A DNA stretch of 28,965 bases from a virus. The notes beneath the pieces are model-generated. The model did no database searches. It was not told the DNA's origin and saw only the letters and a list, made by a program, of their open reading frames with translations. Positions 17,246 through 27,526 of this stretch are shown here, piece after piece. How positions within the stretch are numbered: the stretch's first letter is position 1; every line of letters begins with the position of its first letter. The translations under genes and the position numbers were made by a program. The stretch spans positions 1-28,965 of the IMG/VR virus record IMGVR_UViG_3300019761_000117. The stretch is one strand, 5' to 3'.

Positions 17246-17743
17246 TTAATCCTTTGATAACTTAAAAGTTAAATCTTGTTTTAGTTGTTGCATTTCTTTT
17301 ATTGCATCATCTATTTCATTTGTTGCTTTTATTATTTCTCTATTAGTTAGAATTTCATCTGCAAGAGATTCTTTTGCTTCTTTCCAAGCTTCATTGAACT
17401 CTATCATTGCTTTATCAGCTTGATTGTTTATTTCACTTGCATTTTTATTAGTATCTATTACTTCAAGTTTTTGAATAGAAAAACCATGTTTTGAAGCAAA
17501 ATATTCTAAAGTAAGAAAATCCCCAGATAATTCTAAGTGATGATTCCAATCGGTAACTGTTATATCATGGTCAGGAGAAGAAGGTTTCATTTTTGCATCA
17601 AAAGTTGATTTGCTCATACCTAATTCATTGGCAGCTTCTTCTATGCTGAAACTATTATTTAACCTATCTTTATTAAATGATTTTCTAAAGACTGCTAAAA
17701 ACCTAGAGTCTTTTGATTCTTTCTTACAATGATATTTTTTCAT
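17246..17743 (-). CDS. CII-like regulator (Phage_CP76 type)
   Basis: A 165-residue protein. Residues about 31-60 have the pattern of the CP76/CII group: SIEEAANELGMSKSTFDAKM followed by P..P.H.ITV, then a second part LELSGDFLTLEYFASKHG at about 70-87, which is the most telling match. The C-terminal half is helical and charged. Proteins of this group act as transcription activators in lysis-lysogeny choice. It is the second gene of the left operon, next to the Cro-like gene, and overlaps it by 4 bases (ATGTCATGA), with an AAGGA site upstream. Confidence 0.65.
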   Translation of the reverse strand: MKKYHCKKESKDSRFLAVFRKSFNKDRLNNSFSIEEAANELGMSKSTFDAKMKPSSPDHDITVTDWNHHLELSGDFLTLEYFASKHGFSIQKLEVIDTNKNASEINNQADKAMIEFNEAWKEAKESLADEILTNREIIKATNEIDDAIKEMQQLKQDLTFKLSKD

Positions 17744-17970
17744 GACATTTTTCCTTCTTTGTGATGTTTACTTTTGTTTTTATTATTTGTTACACTTTCA
17801 ACAGAAAGAAAAGATTTGATGTCTTGCCATGCTGTAAAAGGTATATTGTGCTTTAAATTTAAGTTATACATTGTTTCATAAGATGGTCTCATTCTCCCAG
17901 CTAAAACTGATTTAATGCTATCTTCAGAATAATATTTATTTAAAATTTTTTTTAATTCTTTTCTTTCCAT
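17740..17970 (-). CDS. Cro-like small DNA-binding protein
   Basis: A 76-residue protein, divergent from the repressor and separated from it by three operator copies. It reads ILNKYYSEDSIKSVLAGRMR then PSYETMYNLNLKHNIPFTAW, which resembles a short Xre-type HTH (conserved G-R-M-R-P-S turn). The tail is basic (NNKNKSKHHKEGK). By position it is the Cro counterpart, expected to bind the same operators with other preference. No Shine-Dalgarno precedes the ATG and the first operator ends only 6 bases before it, so the message may be nearly leaderless. Confidence 0.65.
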   Translation of the reverse strand: MERKELKKILNKYYSEDSIKSVLAGRMRPSYETMYNLNLKHNIPFTAWQDIKSFLSVESVTNNKNKSKHHKEGKMS

Positions 17971-17975
17971 ATTCG

Positions 17976-18055
17976 AAGTGTAATATTATTACACTTAAAT
18001 AAAGCTTGATTAGTGTGTTTAAATTACACTAAGAGAAGTGTATAATAGATACACT
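17976..18055. promoter_or_regulatory. Left operator cluster (three AGTGT-N9-ACACT sites)
   Basis: Three 19-base sites: AGTGTAATATTATTACACT (17977-17995), AGTGTGTTTAAATTACACT (18012-18030) and AGTGTATAATAGATACACT (18037-18055). All fit AGTGT-N9-ACACT. The first is a perfect palindrome extending one base on each side. Centres are 35 and 25 bases apart. They fill the gap between the divergent Cro-like and repressor genes, like OR of lambda. Confidence 0.85.
18041..18046 (+). promoter_or_regulatory. Probable -10 of the repressor promoter
   Basis: TATAAT lies inside the third operator, 26 bases before the repressor ATG. No good -35 is seen (TTTAAA at the right distance), which is common in Campylobacterota. 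Because it is buried in the operator, the repressor should control its own synthesis by binding the third site. The repressor start is preceded by AAGGA. Confidence 0.6.
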
Positions 18056-18071
18056 AATAAAAAGGAAATAA

Positions 18072-18698
18072 ATGGCTTTCGATGGTGAATTCTTTGCAGA
18101 TCTAATTAATAAAAGAGGGTTGTCCTCGGAACAAATTCTTAATACTTTAAAAGAAGAATATAATATTGAGATAACTGAAAATACATTAAAATCTTATAGA
18201 AGAAAAAGTGGCAAGAATGCTACACCTTCGCTTGATAAATTAAAAGCTTTTGCTCAAATATTAAATGTAACTATAGACGAATTAGCAAATTCAAACCTAA
18301 ATATAAGACCTGTTAAACAAATTCCTTTGATTGGAAAATCATCATGTGGCAAACCTCAGAATTATGATTTAAATGGGCATGAACCTGTACCTATTTCTAT
18401 TGAATTATATAAAGATGGGATGTATGCTGTTGAAGCAGAAGGGGATAGTATGACGCCTAAAATAAATGAACGTGATTTAGTCTATTGTCAGCCAAATAGA
18501 ATTATTGATAATGGTAACATTGTTCATTATTGGTTAGATGGAGATAGTGGGATTAAAAAATATAAAATGAATGATGCAGGAACAATAATTTCACTGATAC
18601 CAATAAATCCATCTCATGAAATAATTACCATACATTGTGATGAAAAACATGAATTAATTATGTCCAGGGTTGTAGGTAAACTTGATAAAAATTTTTAA
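18072..18698 (+). CDS. CI-type repressor with S24 (LexA-like) self-cleavage domain
   Basis: A 208-residue repressor. Residues about 8-72 are an HTH domain (LSSEQILNTLKEEYNIEITE, TLKSYRRKSG). Residues 80-205 are the S24 domain, with cleavage bond probably Cys92-Gly93 (SSCGKP), catalytic Ser126 in EGDSMTPKI and catalytic Lys162 or Lys163 in GIKKYK. Cys-Gly bonds are also cut in UmuD. Such repressors cleave themselves when stimulated by RecA, so induction by DNA damage is expected. It should bind the AGTGT-N9-ACACT sites flanking this region. The ATG has an AAGGA site 6 bases upstream. Confidence 0.92.
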   Translation: MAFDGEFFADLINKRGLSSEQILNTLKEEYNIEITENTLKSYRRKSGKNATPSLDKLKAFAQILNVTIDELANSNLNIRPVKQIPLIGKSSCGKPQNYDLNGHEPVPISIELYKDGMYAVEAEGDSMTPKINERDLVYCQPNRIIDNGNIVHYWLDGDSGIKKYKMNDAGTIISLIPINPSHEIITIHCDEKHELIMSRVVGKLDKNF

Positions 18699-18720
18699 TA
18701 ATAGGAAAATTCCTATTATT
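18697..18720. terminator. Hairpin between convergent genes, possible bidirectional terminator
   Basis: A 10-11 bp perfect inverted repeat, AATAATAGGA and TCCTATTATT, spans the stop codons of the repressor and of the convergent nuclease-like gene. It is A+T-rich and lacks a clean U-tract on the plus strand, while on the minus strand AAAAATTTTT follows the stem. It probably ends both transcripts, weakly. Confidence 0.5.
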
Positions 18721-19777
18721 CTTCAAATCTACTTATTACTTTTTGAAGTTCTGACTTATAATTATAAATATCTTCAACTTTTTCTAATGTAAATTTTTCT
18801 TCTTTTTTATCTTCAATATGTATTGAAATATATTTTTGTTTTGTATTGAAAAGTAATCGACAAACCCATTTTCTATTATTATTGTCTAATAGTACCCCGA
18901 AATAACTCTTTGTGTCTCTTGCATAAATTCTATCAAGAGAAATATTTTCTGCTAAAATTGATTTGACAATAAAAAAGCCTTGAAGTTCTTCTTCTGTAGT
19001 TTCTATTCCATTATCATCGATATCATTTTTATTATTTTCTTCTTGTTCATTATGTATTTCAACATTTAATTTTGTTCTCAATGAGTTTATTTTGTCTTGT
19101 GCCAAATCAGTTACGACTTCTGAGAATGCAATTTTTATATAACTTTTAAACTCATCTAAAACATTTTGTCTCAATGATTTATCAGTTAATTGTGAAGCAA
19201 ATAACCTTGCGAAATCATCAGATGGTTCTTTTGTTTCTCTCTTAAATATAGATTTAATTCCGGCAATATATTTTTTGTTACCTGCACTTGCAATAATATT
19301 ATCTATGTCAAAATTACTATTTTTGAATTTTTCTAATTCTTTTATATCTCTATCTTTCAATTCTAGTAAGTTAAAACTAAAGAAAGGTGTTCTATCCATT
19401 TTATTTGTTTTTTCTAAATCTGTGAATATTTTGTATTCTATTCCATTTGTTAGAATTGCGAATCTACATTCTGTAACTGTAAAATATCTTTCTAATTGTG
19501 TAGCATGATTATCTAAATTTTGATTATGGCACTTAGCTTCGATAAGTATTAAAGGTTCATTATTATGCATAATTGCATAATCTACTTTTTCATTTTTCTT
19601 TTTACTAATATCTGCAGTAAATTCTGGTATCACTACAGTGGGGTTAAATATATCGTATCCTAATAAACTAATGAAAGGCATGATAAAGGAGTGTTTTGTC
19701 GCTTCTTCTGTTACAACACTTTCCCTTAAGTCAACAATTCTTTGAGATAAATTTTTTATTTGCTCTTGAAATTCCAT
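18716..19777 (-). CDS. PD-(D/E)XK nuclease-like protein (type I HsdR-N / COG4748-like), in the immunity region
   Basis: A 353-residue protein. The N-terminal half has a PD-(D/E)XK core: Asp66 in KVDYAI, then Glu80-Ala-Lys82 in LILIEAKCHN, followed by Q94xxxY98 (TQLERYF), the accessory motif of RecB-like nucleases. Residues about 17-50 (VTEEATKHSFIMPFISLLGYD) are the usual opening of this restriction-nuclease-like group. The C-terminal part (about 245-350) is a separate beta-rich domain of unknown role with an acidic linker before it. It has no helicase domain. It lies between the two operator clusters, converging on the repressor, so it can be expressed in a lysogen. That place is used for exclusion genes such as lambda rex; a defence role is inference. 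It starts with an AGGAG site. Confidence 0.75.
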   Translation of the reverse strand: MEFQEQIKNLSQRIVDLRESVVTEEATKHSFIMPFISLLGYDIFNPTVVIPEFTADISKKKNEKVDYAIMHNNEPLILIEAKCHNQNLDNHATQLERYFTVTECRFAILTNGIEYKIFTDLEKTNKMDRTPFFSFNLLELKDRDIKELEKFKNSNFDIDNIIASAGNKKYIAGIKSIFKRETKEPSDDFARLFASQLTDKSLRQNVLDEFKSYIKIAFSEVVTDLAQDKINSLRTKLNVEIHNEQEENNKNDIDDNGIETTEEELQGFFIVKSILAENISLDRIYARDTKSYFGVLLDNNNRKWVCRLLFNTKQKYISIHIEDKKEEKFTLEKVEDIYNYKSELQKVISRFEE

Positions 19778-19782
19778 AAATT

Positions 19783-19807
19783 CTCCTTTTGTATTATTCT
19801 TATTATA
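19783..19807 (-). promoter_or_regulatory. Probable promoter -10 and ribosome site of the nuclease-like gene
   Basis: On the minus strand TATAAT occupies 19807-19802, and AGGAG occupies 19787-19783, five bases before the ATG at 19777. This -10 lies outside the operator copies (nearest operator starts at 19852), so the gene could be transcribed in the lysogenic state, either constitutively or with partial control from the operators. Confidence 0.55.
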
Positions 19808-19851
19808 CTAAAAAAATATAAATTAAATGCTTTTTTTAATTATATTTATAT

Positions 19852-19905
19852 AGTGTAATATAAATACACTATATAAGTTATATTTAAGTGTACTTATATT
19901 ACACT
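19852..19905. promoter_or_regulatory. Right operator cluster (two AGTGT-N9-ACACT sites)
   Basis: Two 19-base sites: AGTGTAATATAAATACACT (19852-19870) and AGTGTACTTATATTACACT (19887-19905). Both match the sites beside the repressor, and their centres are 35 bases apart, the same as the first two sites of the left cluster. TATATT inside the second site could be the -10 of a rightward promoter for the plus-strand early genes. This is the counterpart of lambda OL. Confidence 0.82.
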
Positions 19906-20275
19906 TCTTTCACAGCTTATCAAATAGCTTAAGTTTTTTTAAAACCCACTGTTCAAATCCTTTTATAATAAATATGAAAATAAAAGCATATTTATTAGCA
20001 TATTTATTAGCATATATATTACATATAGAATATGTAAAGGTATCACACGATGAAATGTCGTAAAGAATATTTGTGAAGGTATTTTACAAATGTGATTTGA
20101 GTTTATTGAGGTATTGCGCAGCACACCAAGAAAAGAAAGTGTTGGAACTGTATTTATGTTTGAGTTACCAAGTTAGGTAATTCAATAGTGAATATCTATG
20201 TTAAATGTGATATAACAACTTTTTTTAAGTTGCAACCTTATATATTTTTACTATTAAAAAAAGGAGAAACGTATA
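19906..20275. other. Long leader region without gene
   Basis: About 370 bases between the right operators and the first plus-strand gene. No convincing ORF was found. It contains the 12-base tandem repeats at 19986-20021, three AGGTAT words at 20038, 20077 and 20109, and a weak hairpin CAACTT/AAGTTG (20216-20232). The end carries AGGAG before the next ATG. Likely an untranslated leader of the rightward transcript; an antitermination or regulatory RNA role is possible but not shown. Confidence 0.5.
19986..20021. repeat. Three tandem 12-base repeats
   Basis: GCATATTTATTA occurs at 19986-19997 and 19998-20009, followed by GCATATATATTA at 20010-20021. The tract is downstream of the right operators. 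It may be a binding site or an A+T-rich unwinding sequence, or slippage product. Confidence 0.7.
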
Positions 20276-21184: not shown

Positions 21185-21505
21185 ATGTCAGTGAATGAAA
21201 TTGTACCAAGTGAAATTGAATCACTTATTGAAGCAATGAAAAGTGTGGGAGGGGGTGAGCTTACTCAGCAAGCAGCAAATAATTTGCAAAAAGCTGTAAA
21301 GGCAACAATGATAGAAGGAAAGAAATCAACAATTACAATTACTCTTGGAATCATTAGAACAAATGAAGAGATGATTACTATTGAAGGAACTACAAAAGCA
21401 ACTCTTCCTACTCCCAAAATATCAGGTGCATTTTTTGTTAATAAACAAAGCTATTTGCCAACTAGAAACAGACCAGACCAGGCTGTAATTGATTTTAATA
21501 AATAA
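21185..21505 (+). CDS. Conserved phage protein partnered with a DUF2303-like gene (106 aa)
   Basis: A 106-residue protein. The segment AVKATMIEGKKSTITITLGI resembles small phage proteins (GKKG.(L/V)T..(L/I).(I/V)) that are commonly found next to DUF2303 genes in proteobacterial phages. The end is R..PDQ. Function is unknown even in the known members. It has a good AAGGAG site and is followed after 9 bases by its partner. The link to that group is my recognition of pattern and neighbourhood and not a search result. Confidence 0.55.
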   Translation: MSVNEIVPSEIESLIEAMKSVGGGELTQQAANNLQKAVKATMIEGKKSTITITLGIIRTNEEMITIEGTTKATLPTPKISGAFFVNKQSYLPTRNRPDQAVIDFNK

Positions 21506-21514
21506 GGAATTAAT

Positions 21515-22291
21515 ATGTTAGATAATGTTTTAGATAAGTTTATAGGTTTCTTTCAAAAACCAACCCACGTTTTGACAAATGGCGTTGAAATTCAACATAA
21601 AGACTATTCAACAGTTAAAAAAGGTAAAAACTTCGCTTTACCTATTGAAAGAAATGTAATCAATCAATCAATTATAAATAAATATGATTTTATTGAATTT
21701 ATTAATGAATACAAAAATGATCAAACAAAAATCTTTTATACTGAAAATATTGTTCAAGCTATTTTTAACTACCCAACTGTTGAAAAAGCAGACCATGAAG
21801 ATAGTTATGTGAGAATGGAACTTCAAAAGACAAAAGATTTTATTGTATTTCAATCTTCTTTAGAAGATGATTTGACACAAAAGCAATTAATTAGAATACT
21901 AAAAAGGCTTGAACCTTGCATTGTTGGTTTTGATAATAAAAAAGTTGATGATATGGATATTATTGAAGTTGCTGAAAATCTCCAATCCACAAAAAACATC
22001 CAAAGCGTCCAAAGAAATTCATCTCAAGCTTTTATGATAGATGCAGAAGTAAAAGCCGGAAATGGAAACTTTACAGTGCCAAGATATATTAACTTTGAAA
22101 TGCCTATTTATAAAAATGATTTAAAGATTATTGCTAAATTTGATGTTGAGCTATTCCTTTCTGCAAATGAAGGAAACTTTACTGCAAATCTAGTTTGTTA
22201 TAAATTGGAGCAAACACTTGAAGAAACAGTAAGAGAGCTTACAAAACAAGTTTGTGAAGGTTGTGAAGGAGTTGAGTCCTTTATGGTTTAA
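21515..22291 (+). CDS. DUF2303-like protein (YfdQ group)
   Basis: A 258-residue protein. The order of features fits DUF2303: an N-terminal segment with DYSTVKKGKNFALPIE, then a helix FIEFINEYKNDQTKIFY (about 67-83), then a stretch with a conserved acid/His pair (KADHEDSYVRMELQKTKDF). The C-terminal part is beta-rich. DUF2303 proteins of phages have no known activity but are often encoded close to recombination genes. It makes a two-gene unit with the preceding protein. Family call is moderate because similarity is read by eye. Confidence 0.5.
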   Translation: MLDNVLDKFIGFFQKPTHVLTNGVEIQHKDYSTVKKGKNFALPIERNVINQSIINKYDFIEFINEYKNDQTKIFYTENIVQAIFNYPTVEKADHEDSYVRMELQKTKDFIVFQSSLEDDLTQKQLIRILKRLEPCIVGFDNKKVDDMDIIEVAENLQSTKNIQSVQRNSSQAFMIDAEVKAGNGNFTVPRYINFEMPIYKNDLKIIAKFDVELFLSANEGNFTANLVCYKLEQTLEETVRELTKQVCEGCEGVESFMV

Positions 22292-23965: not shown

Positions 23966-25432
23966 ATGTCAGCTAACCCATACCAATTTGAATTAGACTT
24001 CGATAAGGAATTAATTGTCGATTTATTCGCAGGAGGTGGTGGTGCTTCATGTGGTATTGAAATGGCATTAGGTGTCTCACCTGATATTGCCATTAATCAT
24101 GATCCAGAAGCAATACAATTACATGAAAAAAATCATCCCAAAACATTACATTTTATAAATGATGTATTTGAAATTGACCCAACAAATGTTGCAATAGGAA
24201 GAAAAATTGGTTTACTTTGGTTAAGTCCAGATTGTAAACATTTTTCAAAAGCAAAAGGTGGAAAACCTAAAGAAAAGAAAATTAGAAGTCTTGCATGGAT
24301 TGGTGTTAAATGGGCAAAAACAAAAAGACCTAGAGTTATTATGCTTGAAAATGTAGAAGAGTTTAAAGATTGGGGTCCTATCTGTAAAGAGGGAAAAGTT
24401 ATAGAAGCAAAAAAAGGTGAAACATTTAAAAAATATGTAAAAGAACTTGAAAAACTTGGGTATATGGTTGAATGGAAAGAATTAAAAGCTTGTGATTATG
24501 GAGCTCCAACAATTAGAAAAAGATTCTTTATGATTGCAAGATGTGATGGCAATCCTATTGTATGGCCAAACCCTACACATGGAAAAGGTTTGAAGCCTTA
24601 TAAAACGGCTGCTGATATTATTGATTGGTCTATTCCTAGTTATTCAATTTTTATGGATAAAGAAGAAGCTAAAAAACACAGAGTTAAAAGGCCACTAAGT
24701 GAAAAAACTATGGAAAGGATAGGAAGAGGATTAGAAAAATTTGTAATTAATAATCCTGATCCATTTATTGCTAAAGACGCACTTCCTTTTATAACAACAT
24801 ATTATGGGAAATCTAAAAATGCAAATAATGTTAGAGGTCAAATACTTGGCAAACCTCTTGCTACTATTACAAGTGGTGGATTAAGACATGGTTTAGTTAC
24901 TCCAGTTGTAATAGGAATCGATAATAAATCAAGCAATGGTTCATGGGATATAAAAAAACCTTTGACAACAATTACAAGTAAAGCAAGACATTGCATTGTT
25001 GCTCCATTTATCACAAAATTTTATAAGACCGGAGAAGGTCAAAATATAAATGAACCTATGCATACAATAATGCCTGTAAATAAAAATGGTGTTATATCTG
25101 CTTTTTTAACCAAATATTATGGAACAGGAGAAGGTCAAGAGTTAAAAGGACCTCTTCATACAATAACAACAAAAGATAGATTTGGAATTGTGACTGTAAA
25201 AGAAAAACAATACCAGGTGCAAGATATTTATTTGAGAATGTTATCTCCAAGAGAATTATACAGAGGACAAGGTTTTCCTGATAATTATAAAATTGAGTTT
25301 ATCAAATCAAATGGTAAGCCATTACCAAAAACTGCACAAGTAAGAATGTGTGGTAATTCTGTACCACCGCCACTTGCAAAAGTTTTAGTTGAAGCTAATT
25401 ATAAAATACATGTATTAAAGAAGGTAGCCTAA
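23966..25432 (+). CDS. DNA (cytosine-5) methyltransferase, phage type with SPDC motif
   Basis: A 488-residue C5-cytosine methyltransferase. Motif I is DLFAGGGGASCGIEM (19-33), which binds AdoMet; motif IV is LWLSPDCKHFSKA with catalytic Cys90 (SPDC in place of the usual PCQ, as in a known phage group); motif VI is ENV (128-130); motif VIII is RKRFF (184-188); motifs IX and X are at the C-terminus (RGQGFPDNY, RMCGNSVPPPLAKVL). Between VIII and IX, about residues 265-410, lie four related segments with the pattern PL.TITS/TTK...GIV, the target-recognition region. It likely protects phage DNA from host restriction. AAAGGA lies before the start; its TAA overlaps the next ATG. Confidence 0.92.
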   Translation: MSANPYQFELDFDKELIVDLFAGGGGASCGIEMALGVSPDIAINHDPEAIQLHEKNHPKTLHFINDVFEIDPTNVAIGRKIGLLWLSPDCKHFSKAKGGKPKEKKIRSLAWIGVKWAKTKRPRVIMLENVEEFKDWGPICKEGKVIEAKKGETFKKYVKELEKLGYMVEWKELKACDYGAPTIRKRFFMIARCDGNPIVWPNPTHGKGLKPYKTAADIIDWSIPSYSIFMDKEEAKKHRVKRPLSEKTMERIGRGLEKFVINNPDPFIAKDALPFITTYYGKSKNANNVRGQILGKPLATITSGGLRHGLVTPVVIGIDNKSSNGSWDIKKPLTTITSKARHCIVAPFITKFYKTGEGQNINEPMHTIMPVNKNGVISAFLTKYYGTGEGQELKGPLHTITTKDRFGIVTVKEKQYQVQDIYLRMLSPRELYRGQGFPDNYKIEFIKSNGKPLPKTAQVRMCGNSVPPPLAKVLVEANYKIHVLKKVA

Positions 25433-25704
25433 TGGAAAACTATAAAGATGAATTTGAATACAAAAATGAAACTTATCAAAAGATTCAAGGTCAATCAAAA
25501 AAAGATAGTCATAAAGAACAATTACTAAATCAAGCTATAGGAATCATAATAGGATTAATAGTGATGTTTTTCCTGCTTCCTTTATTAAAAGATATTCCAC
25601 CAATATACGCAAGTCCTATTGCTGTTTTTGTGATGTTTTGTTTTAGTTATGCAAGAGGTTATGGATTAAGAAGACTGTTTAATTATATACAGAGAAAAGG
25701 TTAA
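25432..25704 (+). CDS. Small phage membrane protein, DUF7220-like
   Basis: A 90-residue protein with two hydrophobic helices at about 33-51 and 57-75. The sequence around the helices (QSKKDSHKEQLLNQAIG at 21-37, then FSYARGYGLRRLFN near the end) follows a pattern I associate with DUF7220 phage membrane proteins. Function unknown. It starts inside the methyltransferase stop (TAATG) and ends 4 bases before the next ATG, so these three genes are one unit. Confidence 0.65.
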   Translation: MENYKDEFEYKNETYQKIQGQSKKDSHKEQLLNQAIGIIIGLIVMFFLLPLLKDIPPIYASPIAVFVMFCFSYARGYGLRRLFNYIQRKG

Positions 25705-25708
25705 GAGA

Positions 25709-26938
25709 ATGAGTAAAAATACTCTATTAGGAAATAAAACTACATACAAAGCGTTAAAAGAAAAACAAAATTGGCTTTTATACAAGAAAGTAGAACATAC
25801 AAAAGGAAGAATCAAAGAATTCCTTCTTTTTACTGAGGGTAAAGCCTATATTTCATTTTCTGGTGGACTTGACTCTACTGTATTGCTTCATATTGCAAGA
25901 ACTATTTATCCTGATATTCCAGCTGTTTTCTGCAACACTACAAATGAAGATCCTGAAATTATTAAATTTGTGAGAACAATTGACAACGTAAAAACTCTAT
26001 ACCCTGTAATGAAATTTAAAGAAATTGTTCAAAAACATGGCTTTCCTTTTGTTAGTAAAAAAGTTTCTAGGTCTATTAGTGAATTACGACAAGAAAATCC
26101 TAATAGTCCTAATATTAGAAATCTATATTTATCAGGATTTAATAGAAAATCTCAATATGCTCAAAGTTGGAAACTTGCAAAAAAGTGGTACTTTTTATTT
26201 GATAAAGAAGAGACTAAATTTGATATTACTTCAACCTGTTGTGATATTCTAAAAAAAGACCCAATTGAAAAGTTTAATAAGGAAACAGGGATGTCTCCAA
26301 TTATTGGAACAACAGCAGAGGAAGGTCAAGATAGAGAATTGAATTATATTAAATATGGCTGCAATATTTATGATAGTAAAAAACCAAAATCAAGACCAAT
26401 GAGTATCTGGACGAATCAAGATGTTTGGGATTATATAAAAATACATCATATAAATTATTGCTCTTTATATGATGACTTAGTCCTAAAAGATGGAACCATT
26501 GTAAAAGGAGAATCTAGAACAGGTTGTGTCGCAGGTGGAATGGGTTGTAGTCTAGAGGAGACGAATAGATTTGAAACTCTAAAATTAAGAAATCCTAAAC
26601 ATTATAGAAATATAATGAAATACACTAATAATGGGATTACGTTTAAAGAAGCCTTTGAACATACATTTAACACTCCTAAAAAACTTACTTCAGAAGAATA
26701 TAAAAGTAAAACTTTAAAAAAAGGTTTTGAAACTCTTAAAAATCATCATGTAATTTGTCTGGAAAAAACACATTTAGAATTAAGTGATCAATTAAAAGAT
26801 AAATTAGATGTACAAGAGAAATATTATCAACTTAGAAAAACTTATGAGCATAGAGATATTTTATACATGATTTTAAATAAAAAATTAAAAATAGATTTAG
26901 AAATCACTACTAAAAAATCTTTGCTTGATTTCATTTAA
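25709..26938 (+). CDS. PAPS-reductase-like PP-loop ATP pyrophosphatase
   Basis: A 409-residue protein. The PP-loop is SGGLDST (51-57), preceded by a beta strand AYISF, so it should adenylate a substrate using ATP. Five Cys stand out: Cys177-Cys178 (STCCDIL), Cys218, and Cys273 and Cys280 (RTGCVAGGMGC). This CC...C.x6.C spread resembles the iron-sulfur site in APS reductases and DndC-like proteins, but with different spacing. Such 'phosphoadenosine phosphosulfate reductase family' genes are common in phages, with unknown substrate. Next to a DNA methyltransferase, a part in nucleic-acid modification is plausible; this is inference. Confidence 0.85.
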   Translation: MSKNTLLGNKTTYKALKEKQNWLLYKKVEHTKGRIKEFLLFTEGKAYISFSGGLDSTVLLHIARTIYPDIPAVFCNTTNEDPEIIKFVRTIDNVKTLYPVMKFKEIVQKHGFPFVSKKVSRSISELRQENPNSPNIRNLYLSGFNRKSQYAQSWKLAKKWYFLFDKEETKFDITSTCCDILKKDPIEKFNKETGMSPIIGTTAEEGQDRELNYIKYGCNIYDSKKPKSRPMSIWTNQDVWDYIKIHHINYCSLYDDLVLKDGTIVKGESRTGCVAGGMGCSLEETNRFETLKLRNPKHYRNIMKYTNNGITFKEAFEHTFNTPKKLTSEEYKSKTLKKGFETLKNHHVICLEKTHLELSDQLKDKLDVQEKYYQLRKTYEHRDILYMILNKKLKIDLEITTKKSLLDFI

Positions 26939-26947
26939 AGGAAAACC

Positions 26948-27526
26948 ATGAGTTTAAATCCTAAACCCATATCAAAAGAATGGATAAAAAAGAAATATTG
27001 GATTGAACAATTAACTGCAGAGGAAATGGCAGCAGTTAGAAAAGTAAAACCAACTTATATTCAAGACCTTATATGCAAATATGATTTAAGTAAAAAGAAA
27101 AATGGTATTAAAGCAAAAGGCAAAAAAAATTACATAATGCCTGAAAAAGAAAAAGTAAAACACAGAATTCAACCTCATGCAAAAGAAATAGTAGCGTTTA
27201 AAGGAATAAATAAAAAATATATCGGTTCTTTTAGATCTATTAATAAAGCAGCTATTGAGCTTAATCTTTCAAGAGCAAATATACGAGGTTGTTTGAATCC
27301 CAAAGTAAAAAGAAATTCTGTAAAAGGTTACACTTTTGAATATAAAAAATATAAAGGTGAAATAATTATTGGAAGAAGAGAAAGTTTAGATTTTACATTA
27401 GAATTTGAAAAAGTATGCAATGGGTTAACTGCAAAACTTCCTTTTTACCCATATGAAGAAAGAATTAATCATTACAATAAAAAATTAAAAAAAGTATTTG
27501 AAGATATAAGGAATAAAAATGAGTAA
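26948..27526 (+). CDS. NUMOD1-like DNA-binding protein without nuclease domain
   Basis: A 192-residue basic protein. Residues about 6-55 look like an HTH (WIEQLTAEEMAAVRKVKPTY). Residues about 82-132 have a NUMOD1-like repeat: IVAFKGINKKYIGSFRSINK, then AAIELNLSRANIRGCL, then GYTFEYKKYKG. NUMOD1 normally binds DNA in homing endonucleases, but no HNH or GIY-YIG motif is present. The rest is charged and helical. It has an AAAGGA site and overlaps the next gene. It may be a regulator or a remnant of a homing endonuclease. Confidence 0.65.
   Translation: MSLNPKPISKEWIKKKYWIEQLTAEEMAAVRKVKPTYIQDLICKYDLSKKKNGIKAKGKKNYIMPEKEKVKHRIQPHAKEIVAFKGINKKYIGSFRSINKAAIELNLSRANIRGCLNPKVKRNSVKGYTFEYKKYKGEIIIGRRESLDFTLEFEKVCNGLTAKLPFYPYEERINHYNKKLKKVFEDIRNKNE

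Follow-up and report, generated by a model that had tools for sequence, protein, structure and literature searches.

The window analyzed here is the whole stretch of 28,965 nucleotides of the IMG/VR virus record IMGVR_UViG_3300019761_000117. It harbors a putative lambda-like immunity region, in which a gene for a CI-like repressor and a divergent cro-like gene are accompanied by five copies of the palindrome AGTGT-N9-ACACT. The core of this locus is listed below; the candidate operators were placed by motif scan (O3 also by scoring of homologous loci), and the cro-like gene was assigned from an AlphaFold2 (AF2) model and from the Pfam matches of its homologues.

17740..17970, minus strand: cro-like gene, 76 amino acids, divergent from cI
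17977..17995: candidate operator O1 (OR1-like), AGTGTAATATTATTACACT, its end separated from the cro ATG by 6 nt
18012..18030: candidate operator O2 (OR2-like), AGTGTGTTTAAATTACACT
18037..18055: candidate operator O3 (OR3-like), AGTGTATAATAGATACACT, its centre 25 bp from that of O2
18072..18698, plus strand: CI-like repressor, 208 amino acids, helix-turn-helix (HTH) and C-terminal Peptidase_S24 domain (PF00717, 1.1e-17; HTH_26, 0.00054; phrog_4 transcriptional repressor, 4.3e-22)
19852..19870: candidate left distal operator, AGTGTAATATAAATACACT
19887..19905: candidate left proximal operator, AGTGTACTTATATTACACT

A preliminary description of this DNA had reported five exact copies of the motif in two clusters, and all five are present, whereas dinucleotide shuffles of the record contain 0.01 copies on average and never more than 1. 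The positions given there were right apart from one base, the first site beginning at 17977 and not at 17976. The 35-base spacing ascribed to both clusters holds between the centres of O1 and O2 and within the left pair, while the 25 bp between O2 and O3 had been omitted. O1, O2, and O3 are located between the divergent cro and cI and span 79 bp; the left pair spans 54 bp and lies 1,910 bp off (O1 centre to last site centre), as the earlier estimate of about 1.9 kb had it. The proposed search for further copies, carried out on the phage record, revealed no additional exact site in the whole window. With up to two mismatches, 12 copies were counted versus 11.1 expected by chance, indicating that there is no tail of weak operator copies.

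In the AF2 model of CI (mean pLDDT 83.6), the N-terminal domain is helical and the C-terminal one is built of beta structure, and the Foldseek matches of the model include the LexA, lambda, and 186 repressors, among them the lambda CI octamer structure 1kca (E 4.6e-5, C-terminal domain fold). Residues C92-G93, which we take to resemble a cleavage site, and S126 and K162, presumably the catalytic pair of the S24 family, are the same in all 13 aligned CIs. CI is thus a protein with the HTH and the S24 self-cleavage domain of a lambda-like switch, and self-cleavage is predicted. The AF2 model of Cro, built on 11 homologues, is helical and HTH-like (mean pLDDT 81), and the homologues match HTH_3 in four and P22_Cro in three of the 11 cases.

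An initial search with the window CI alone found no close relatives. Scanning viral contigs for tandem AGTGT sites with free spacing (gap of 2 to 32 bases) returned 18 loci, and an AGTGT pair scan of the genomes of 84,980 species returned 24; many of these loci are unrelated and have other spacings. Only three of the 18 viral loci (L014, L018, and L020) are homologous to the window by tblastn, and in these a homologous Cro adjoins the sites. The L014 record harbors a second cluster at 24083 (one mismatch) and 24118, with a spacing of 35 and a right-hand pair spaced by 36, and the L020 record harbors one at 27131 (one mismatch) and 27167, with a spacing of 36 and a right-hand pair spaced by 35. 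Searching five whole relative records for AGTGT-N9-ACACT gave operator clusters in three of them and one stray match with one mismatch in G003. Pairs of this motif with a 33-bp spacing were also seen on archaeal contigs titled Methanocalculus (L025, L031, L033, L034, and L039).

Alignment searches with CI and with DUF2303, which is encoded past the left cluster, yielded the loci L062 to L090. De novo palindromes of other sequences were found near their cI genes, namely, TATCA-N3 (L072 and L074), GATAC-N5 (L073), and GTAAG-N5 (L085, L087, and L090, as well as L064 and L024), so that related loci carry at least four different operator sequences. We then scored the pair-of-pairs layout in 24 loci with 60 shuffles each, a locus passing if it scored above every shuffle. 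Eighteen passed, with 33 to 36 bp in both pairs (the window, L020, L064, L024, L072, L073, L074, L076, L079, L080, L082 to L088, and L090). L020, L018, L064, and L024 had been chosen with their sites already known; of the 19 loci that CI similarity alone had brought up (L072 to L090), 14 passed, including L076, which is the L014 record and had been seen before. The lambda OR/OL layout around cI recognized in the preliminary description is therefore, as anatomy, a recurrent one, and both clusters change together.

When spacings from 20 to 60 were scanned, the optimum fell at 33 to 36 in all 18 passing loci, and the secondary peaks at 24 to 26 and 57 to 60 in many loci are due to O3. Twelve of 16 loci have a site scoring at least 9/12 at 24 to 26 bp from O2. 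None of the 16 showed a third left site within 43 positions on each side of the left pair (best score 8/12, not above background). The distance from O1 to the proximal left site ranges from 1,189 (L086) to 4,090 bp (L073) among relatives. A free-spacing (19 to 49) database scan for GTAAG-N5-CTTAC gave 36 pairs, 14 of them, several from records already seen, at exactly 34, with no other single spacing occurring more than four times. Of these 36 pairs, which lie on contigs L096 to L129, another 14 are spaced by 44 to 49 bp, about one more helical turn, in other viruses. Run through the same pair method, lambda returned its own operators among the top rows, with a score of 39, near the top of the other loci's shuffle range. 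N15 gave nothing above threshold, indicating that some real switches escape the method, and the control CJIE4-1 gave no two-cluster layout.

The relation between operators and repressor is best seen in L079 and L085, which share long, nearly identical blocks and carry ATTACC-type and GTAAG-type operators, respectively. They differ in the block comprising cro, the right operators, and the CI HTH, in two cargo blocks, and in an island of about 60 bp that corresponds exactly to the left operator pair, the DNA on either side being identical. Although it lies 2.4 to 2.6 kb away, the left cluster is thus exchanged along with the DNA-binding parts of CI and Cro, which argues that one repressor serves both clusters; this exchange is the strongest sequence evidence for a single repressor at both. 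Across relatives, the operator class tracks the HTH class of CI and Cro.

The L014/L076 record encodes, directly behind cI (L059:1538-2485), a 315-amino-acid protein with two HTH domains and one S24 domain. Its first HTH is closest to those of the AGTGT-class CIs (L018 and the window), and its second is 58 to 68% identical to those of the GTAAG-class CIs, the six members of which are its six best matches. Because the record itself contains no GTAAG operator, even with one mismatch, this protein may be a bispecific repressor that excludes heteroimmune phages. A search of viral contigs did not find a second protein carrying both HTHs.

The promoters of the locus are hexamer predictions drawn from conservation in 17 loci.

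17977..17982, minus strand: predicted PR -10 (TACACT), inside O1, from TANNNT conservation
18041..18046, plus strand: predicted -10 of the cI promoter, PRM-like (TATAAT), inside O3
19900..19905, plus strand: predicted PL -10 (TACACT) of a rightward early promoter
19802..19807, minus strand: possible -10 (TATAAT) of a separate promoter for the endonuclease gene described below, about 45 bp downstream of the left operators, as read in the sequence

All 17 loci have a TANNNT hexamer 5 to 7 nt ahead of the cro ATG, at 4 to 5 bp from the O1 centre, and the PR transcript is predicted to start at the A of this ATG. No Shine-Dalgarno match of at least four bases precedes cro in any of 18 loci, whereas one is present before cI in all 17 loci examined, and the cro mRNA is therefore probably leaderless. 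In each of the 17 loci, the PL hexamer sits 4 to 5 bp away from the midpoint of the left proximal site; its offset matches that of the PR hexamer in 16, the exception being L088, where the hexamer was placed by hand. The cI -10, mostly TGN-TANNAT, lies within O3 and 19 to 20 bp from the O2 centre, again in 17 of 17 loci.

We consider it very likely that CI of this phage uses the five sites as its operators, in a lambda-like arrangement of three plus two. By analogy with known switches, Cro would probably bind them as well. We regard the system as a genuine lambda-style switch because relatives keep the layout and the spacing while swapping the site sequence together with the DNA-binding part of CI. 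Several points weigh against this interpretation. The operators were assigned by sequence comparison; the loci are related, so that the counts above are not independent events; the pair-of-pairs layout was not seen in six of the 24 loci (L075, L077, L078, L081, L089, and L018, the last being a contig that stops just after the cI start); and O3 is weak or absent in four of 16 (L079, L083, L087, and L090). The window Cro itself has no Pfam match, and its Foldseek matches to HTH proteins are weak. Part of the PL hexamer sits in the shared operator, so that it does not count as evidence separate from the PR hexamer. Finally, a generic sigma-70 scan of the window, which may not fit the sigma factor of the host, gave 23 promoters versus 22.8 expected, so it is conservation that carries the promoter predictions.

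In the mechanism we propose, each cluster would form one promoter-operator cassette, the proximal site covering the -10 of an outward early promoter and the distal site lying just upstream. PR would drive the leaderless cro and the replication genes, and PL would drive the DUF2303 operon. CI dimers would fill O1/O2 and the left pair cooperatively across 34 to 36 bp, shutting PR and PL; we infer cooperativity within the pairs because the spacing is fixed and phase-preserving. The conserved 33 to 36 bp would then reflect this cooperativity between neighbors together with promoter geometry, the proximal site being placed on the -10 and the distal one upstream. At a higher CI level, O3, which overlaps the predicted cI -10, would be filled and cI transcription limited, and Cro would act likewise, competing during lytic growth. 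SOS-induced self-cleavage of the S24 domain would free both promoters. With the predicted cI -10 at a mere 19 to 20 bp from O2, it is doubtful that O2 activates cI as in lambda: there, the equivalent site is centred near -42 of the cI start, whereas O2 is predicted here to be centred near -32, about one turn closer.

Whether the two clusters act separately or together can be weighed within this framework. That they are independent, with the pair of CI dimers at each cluster shutting off the local early promoter and no looping, strikes us as slightly more likely than not. Each cluster would be a complete promoter-operator cassette with its -10 at the same offset, which would suffice for the conservation of both, and in phiKO2, according to PMC4997575, two OL operators are bound by CB and thought to control repA. 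Independence alone leaves the strict two-site pair at both ends unexplained; local cooperativity would explain it.

Lambda-style looping, in which CI dimers on the right and left pairs would join as an octamer across about 1.9 kb and tighten repression of PR and PL, is a plausible addition that we would not call probable. The same repressor would act at both ends, as indicated by the pair-of-pairs layout and by L079/L085; pairs at each end suit a two-by-two octamer; the C-terminal domain of CI folds like that of lambda CI, as the octamer match shows; and lambda itself loops over about 2.3 kb, as given in PMC5880393. The preliminary description had taken the conserved spacing to suggest DNA looping. 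This argument does not hold: what stays constant, 33 to 36 bp, is the distance within clusters, while in relatives the two clusters lie anywhere from about 1.2 to 4.1 kb apart, a variation that speaks neither for nor against a loop. Since none of the 16 loci has a third left site, the OL3-OR3 autoregulatory bridge of lambda is not available; 933W is likewise described, in PMC5977221, as lacking OL3, and a title cited there reports a 933W loop without a role in PRM control.

Far less probable is a reading in which the sites are targets of a protein other than CI or Cro, such as a replication initiator or a host regulator. Iterons, too, can be palindromic repeats near replication genes, which provides a precedent. 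However, operators of a given class go with CI and Cro of a given HTH class across the relatives, and between L079 and L085 the two change together; the sites also overlap the predicted -10s of cro and cI. Chance palindromes in AT-rich DNA have a negligible probability and are ruled out by the shuffles (five exact copies versus 0.01 expected) and by the pair-of-pairs layout kept in relatives, even if the two-mismatch count is at chance level.

Compared with lambda, the system presumed here shares the divergent cI and cro genes with three operators between them, the S24-type repressor, a second operator cluster about 2 kb away at the opposite early operon (whose promoter is predicted here), accessory genes between cI and OL (rexAB in lambda), a CII-like gene adjoining cro, and, in several relatives, a hairpin in the PL leader. 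The annotated lambda spacings are 24 (OR1-OR2), 23 (OR2-OR3), 24 (OL1-OL2), and 20 (OL2-OL3). Thus, the pair spacing of 33 to 36 is wider than the 24 of lambda by some 10 to 11 bp, or one helical turn, and the left sites are two at 35 bp instead of three at 20 to 24 bp. Further differences are that the leaderless gene is apparently cro and not cI and that the accessory gene encodes an HsdR_N-type endonuclease.

A set of three OR plus two OL operators, as in the window, is reported for N15/phiKO2 (immB) in PMC4997575 and PMC4488713, and the latter also describes leaderless cI and cro mRNAs in their relative PY54. The annotated spans differ, OL covering 39 bp and OR 65 bp in N15 versus 54 and 79 bp here. 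According to PMC4997575, phiKO2 Cro binds OR3 only, and the residues that self-cleaving repressors have in common could not be detected in CB of phiKO2/N15, unlike the window CI, an S24 protein with invariant C92-G93, S126, and K162. The lambdoid phage 933W resembles the window in the absence of OL3 and differs in that its repressor is described, in PMC5977221, as not cooperative between OR1 and OR2.

The surroundings of the switch comprise the following features.

17246-17743, minus strand: CII-like gene (PF06892)
18716..19777, minus strand: HsdR_N-type endonuclease gene, between cI and the left cluster and converging on cI (PF04313, 2.5e-14; phrog_4225, 6.8e-121)
19912..20275, plus strand: non-coding leader of the PL operon, with no open reading frame of at least 55 amino acids ahead of 20276
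21515..22291, plus strand: DUF2303 gene of the PL operon (PF10065, 3e-12), the anchor of the search for relatives

The minus strand upstream also encodes a replication-protein-like gene and a DnaC-like loader, and the plus-strand operon past the left cluster continues from DUF2303 to a C5-methylase and to an integrase at the contig end. The cargo of this left operon (23966-27526) includes the C5-cytosine methylase, a PAPS-reductase-domain protein with weak BrxP/SspD matches in a defence library, and a NUMOD-like protein. The endonuclease is 71% identical to that of L023/L024 (5001-6065); it converges on cI in the window and is co-directional in L023 and L024, with the left operators at the outer end throughout. 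Searches with CI, the endonuclease, DUF2303, the capsid, or the terminase found no close named phage, and the 33% identity of the terminase to those of Campylobacter CJIE4 phages says little.

Blocks of the PL leader are conserved in relatives (L024, L063, L064, and L072), leader positions 188-252 of the window being 85% identical in L024, L063, and L072. Just downstream of the left promoter, L080 (9626-9663) and the aligned L086, L090, L074, and L070 carry a hairpin with a CAAACAA.. outer stem and a variable inner stem, and its position suggests a nut/put-like antitermination site. Both-side changes occur in three of 13 pairs in these five hand-chosen sequences, which gave pairs on folding, while a consensus fold of nine PL leaders gave none. 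Neither this hairpin nor the window leader matched an Rfam family at gathering score, and below it the window leader gave only chance-level matches. A short hairpin of another kind is present in the leaders of the window, L064, L024, and L072. L065 to L069, L073, and L074 share a second conserved motif of stem-like form, GTATCTA..ATGAG..CTGATTAAATAC, located in the 5' region upstream of their phrog_204 gene, a relative of window 21185-21505.

In the open-access literature, we found no description of a conserved 34- to 36-bp operator frame at both ends or of both clusters being exchanged along with the HTH domains. The wider frame is what sets the switch apart, the three-plus-two operator set being already known. 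As a tentative and rather doubtful generalization, these phages might constitute a family with "plug-in" immunity, in which two identical promoter-operator cassettes on a 34- to 36-bp frame flank the immunity region and both clusters, Cro, and the CI HTH are traded together, the CI cleavage domain and much of the intervening DNA being kept. In such a family, cI would be transcribed from an (extended) -10 promoter without activation from O2, hence without the positive autoregulation of lambda, and the bispecific repressor of one relative, by adding an HTH of a foreign class, would exclude heteroimmune phages. The operator code would be readable across many uncultivated temperate phages, so that the immunity class could be told from DNA and the CI and Cro helices matched to their operators. 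The near-isogenic L079 and L085 offer a natural test of whether immunity needs the distant cluster, and the conserved frame, wider by one turn, provides a system outside lambda in which to probe how operator spacing affects repressor cooperativity. Overall, we regard the finding as a solid, not a revolutionary, extension of the lambda paradigm.

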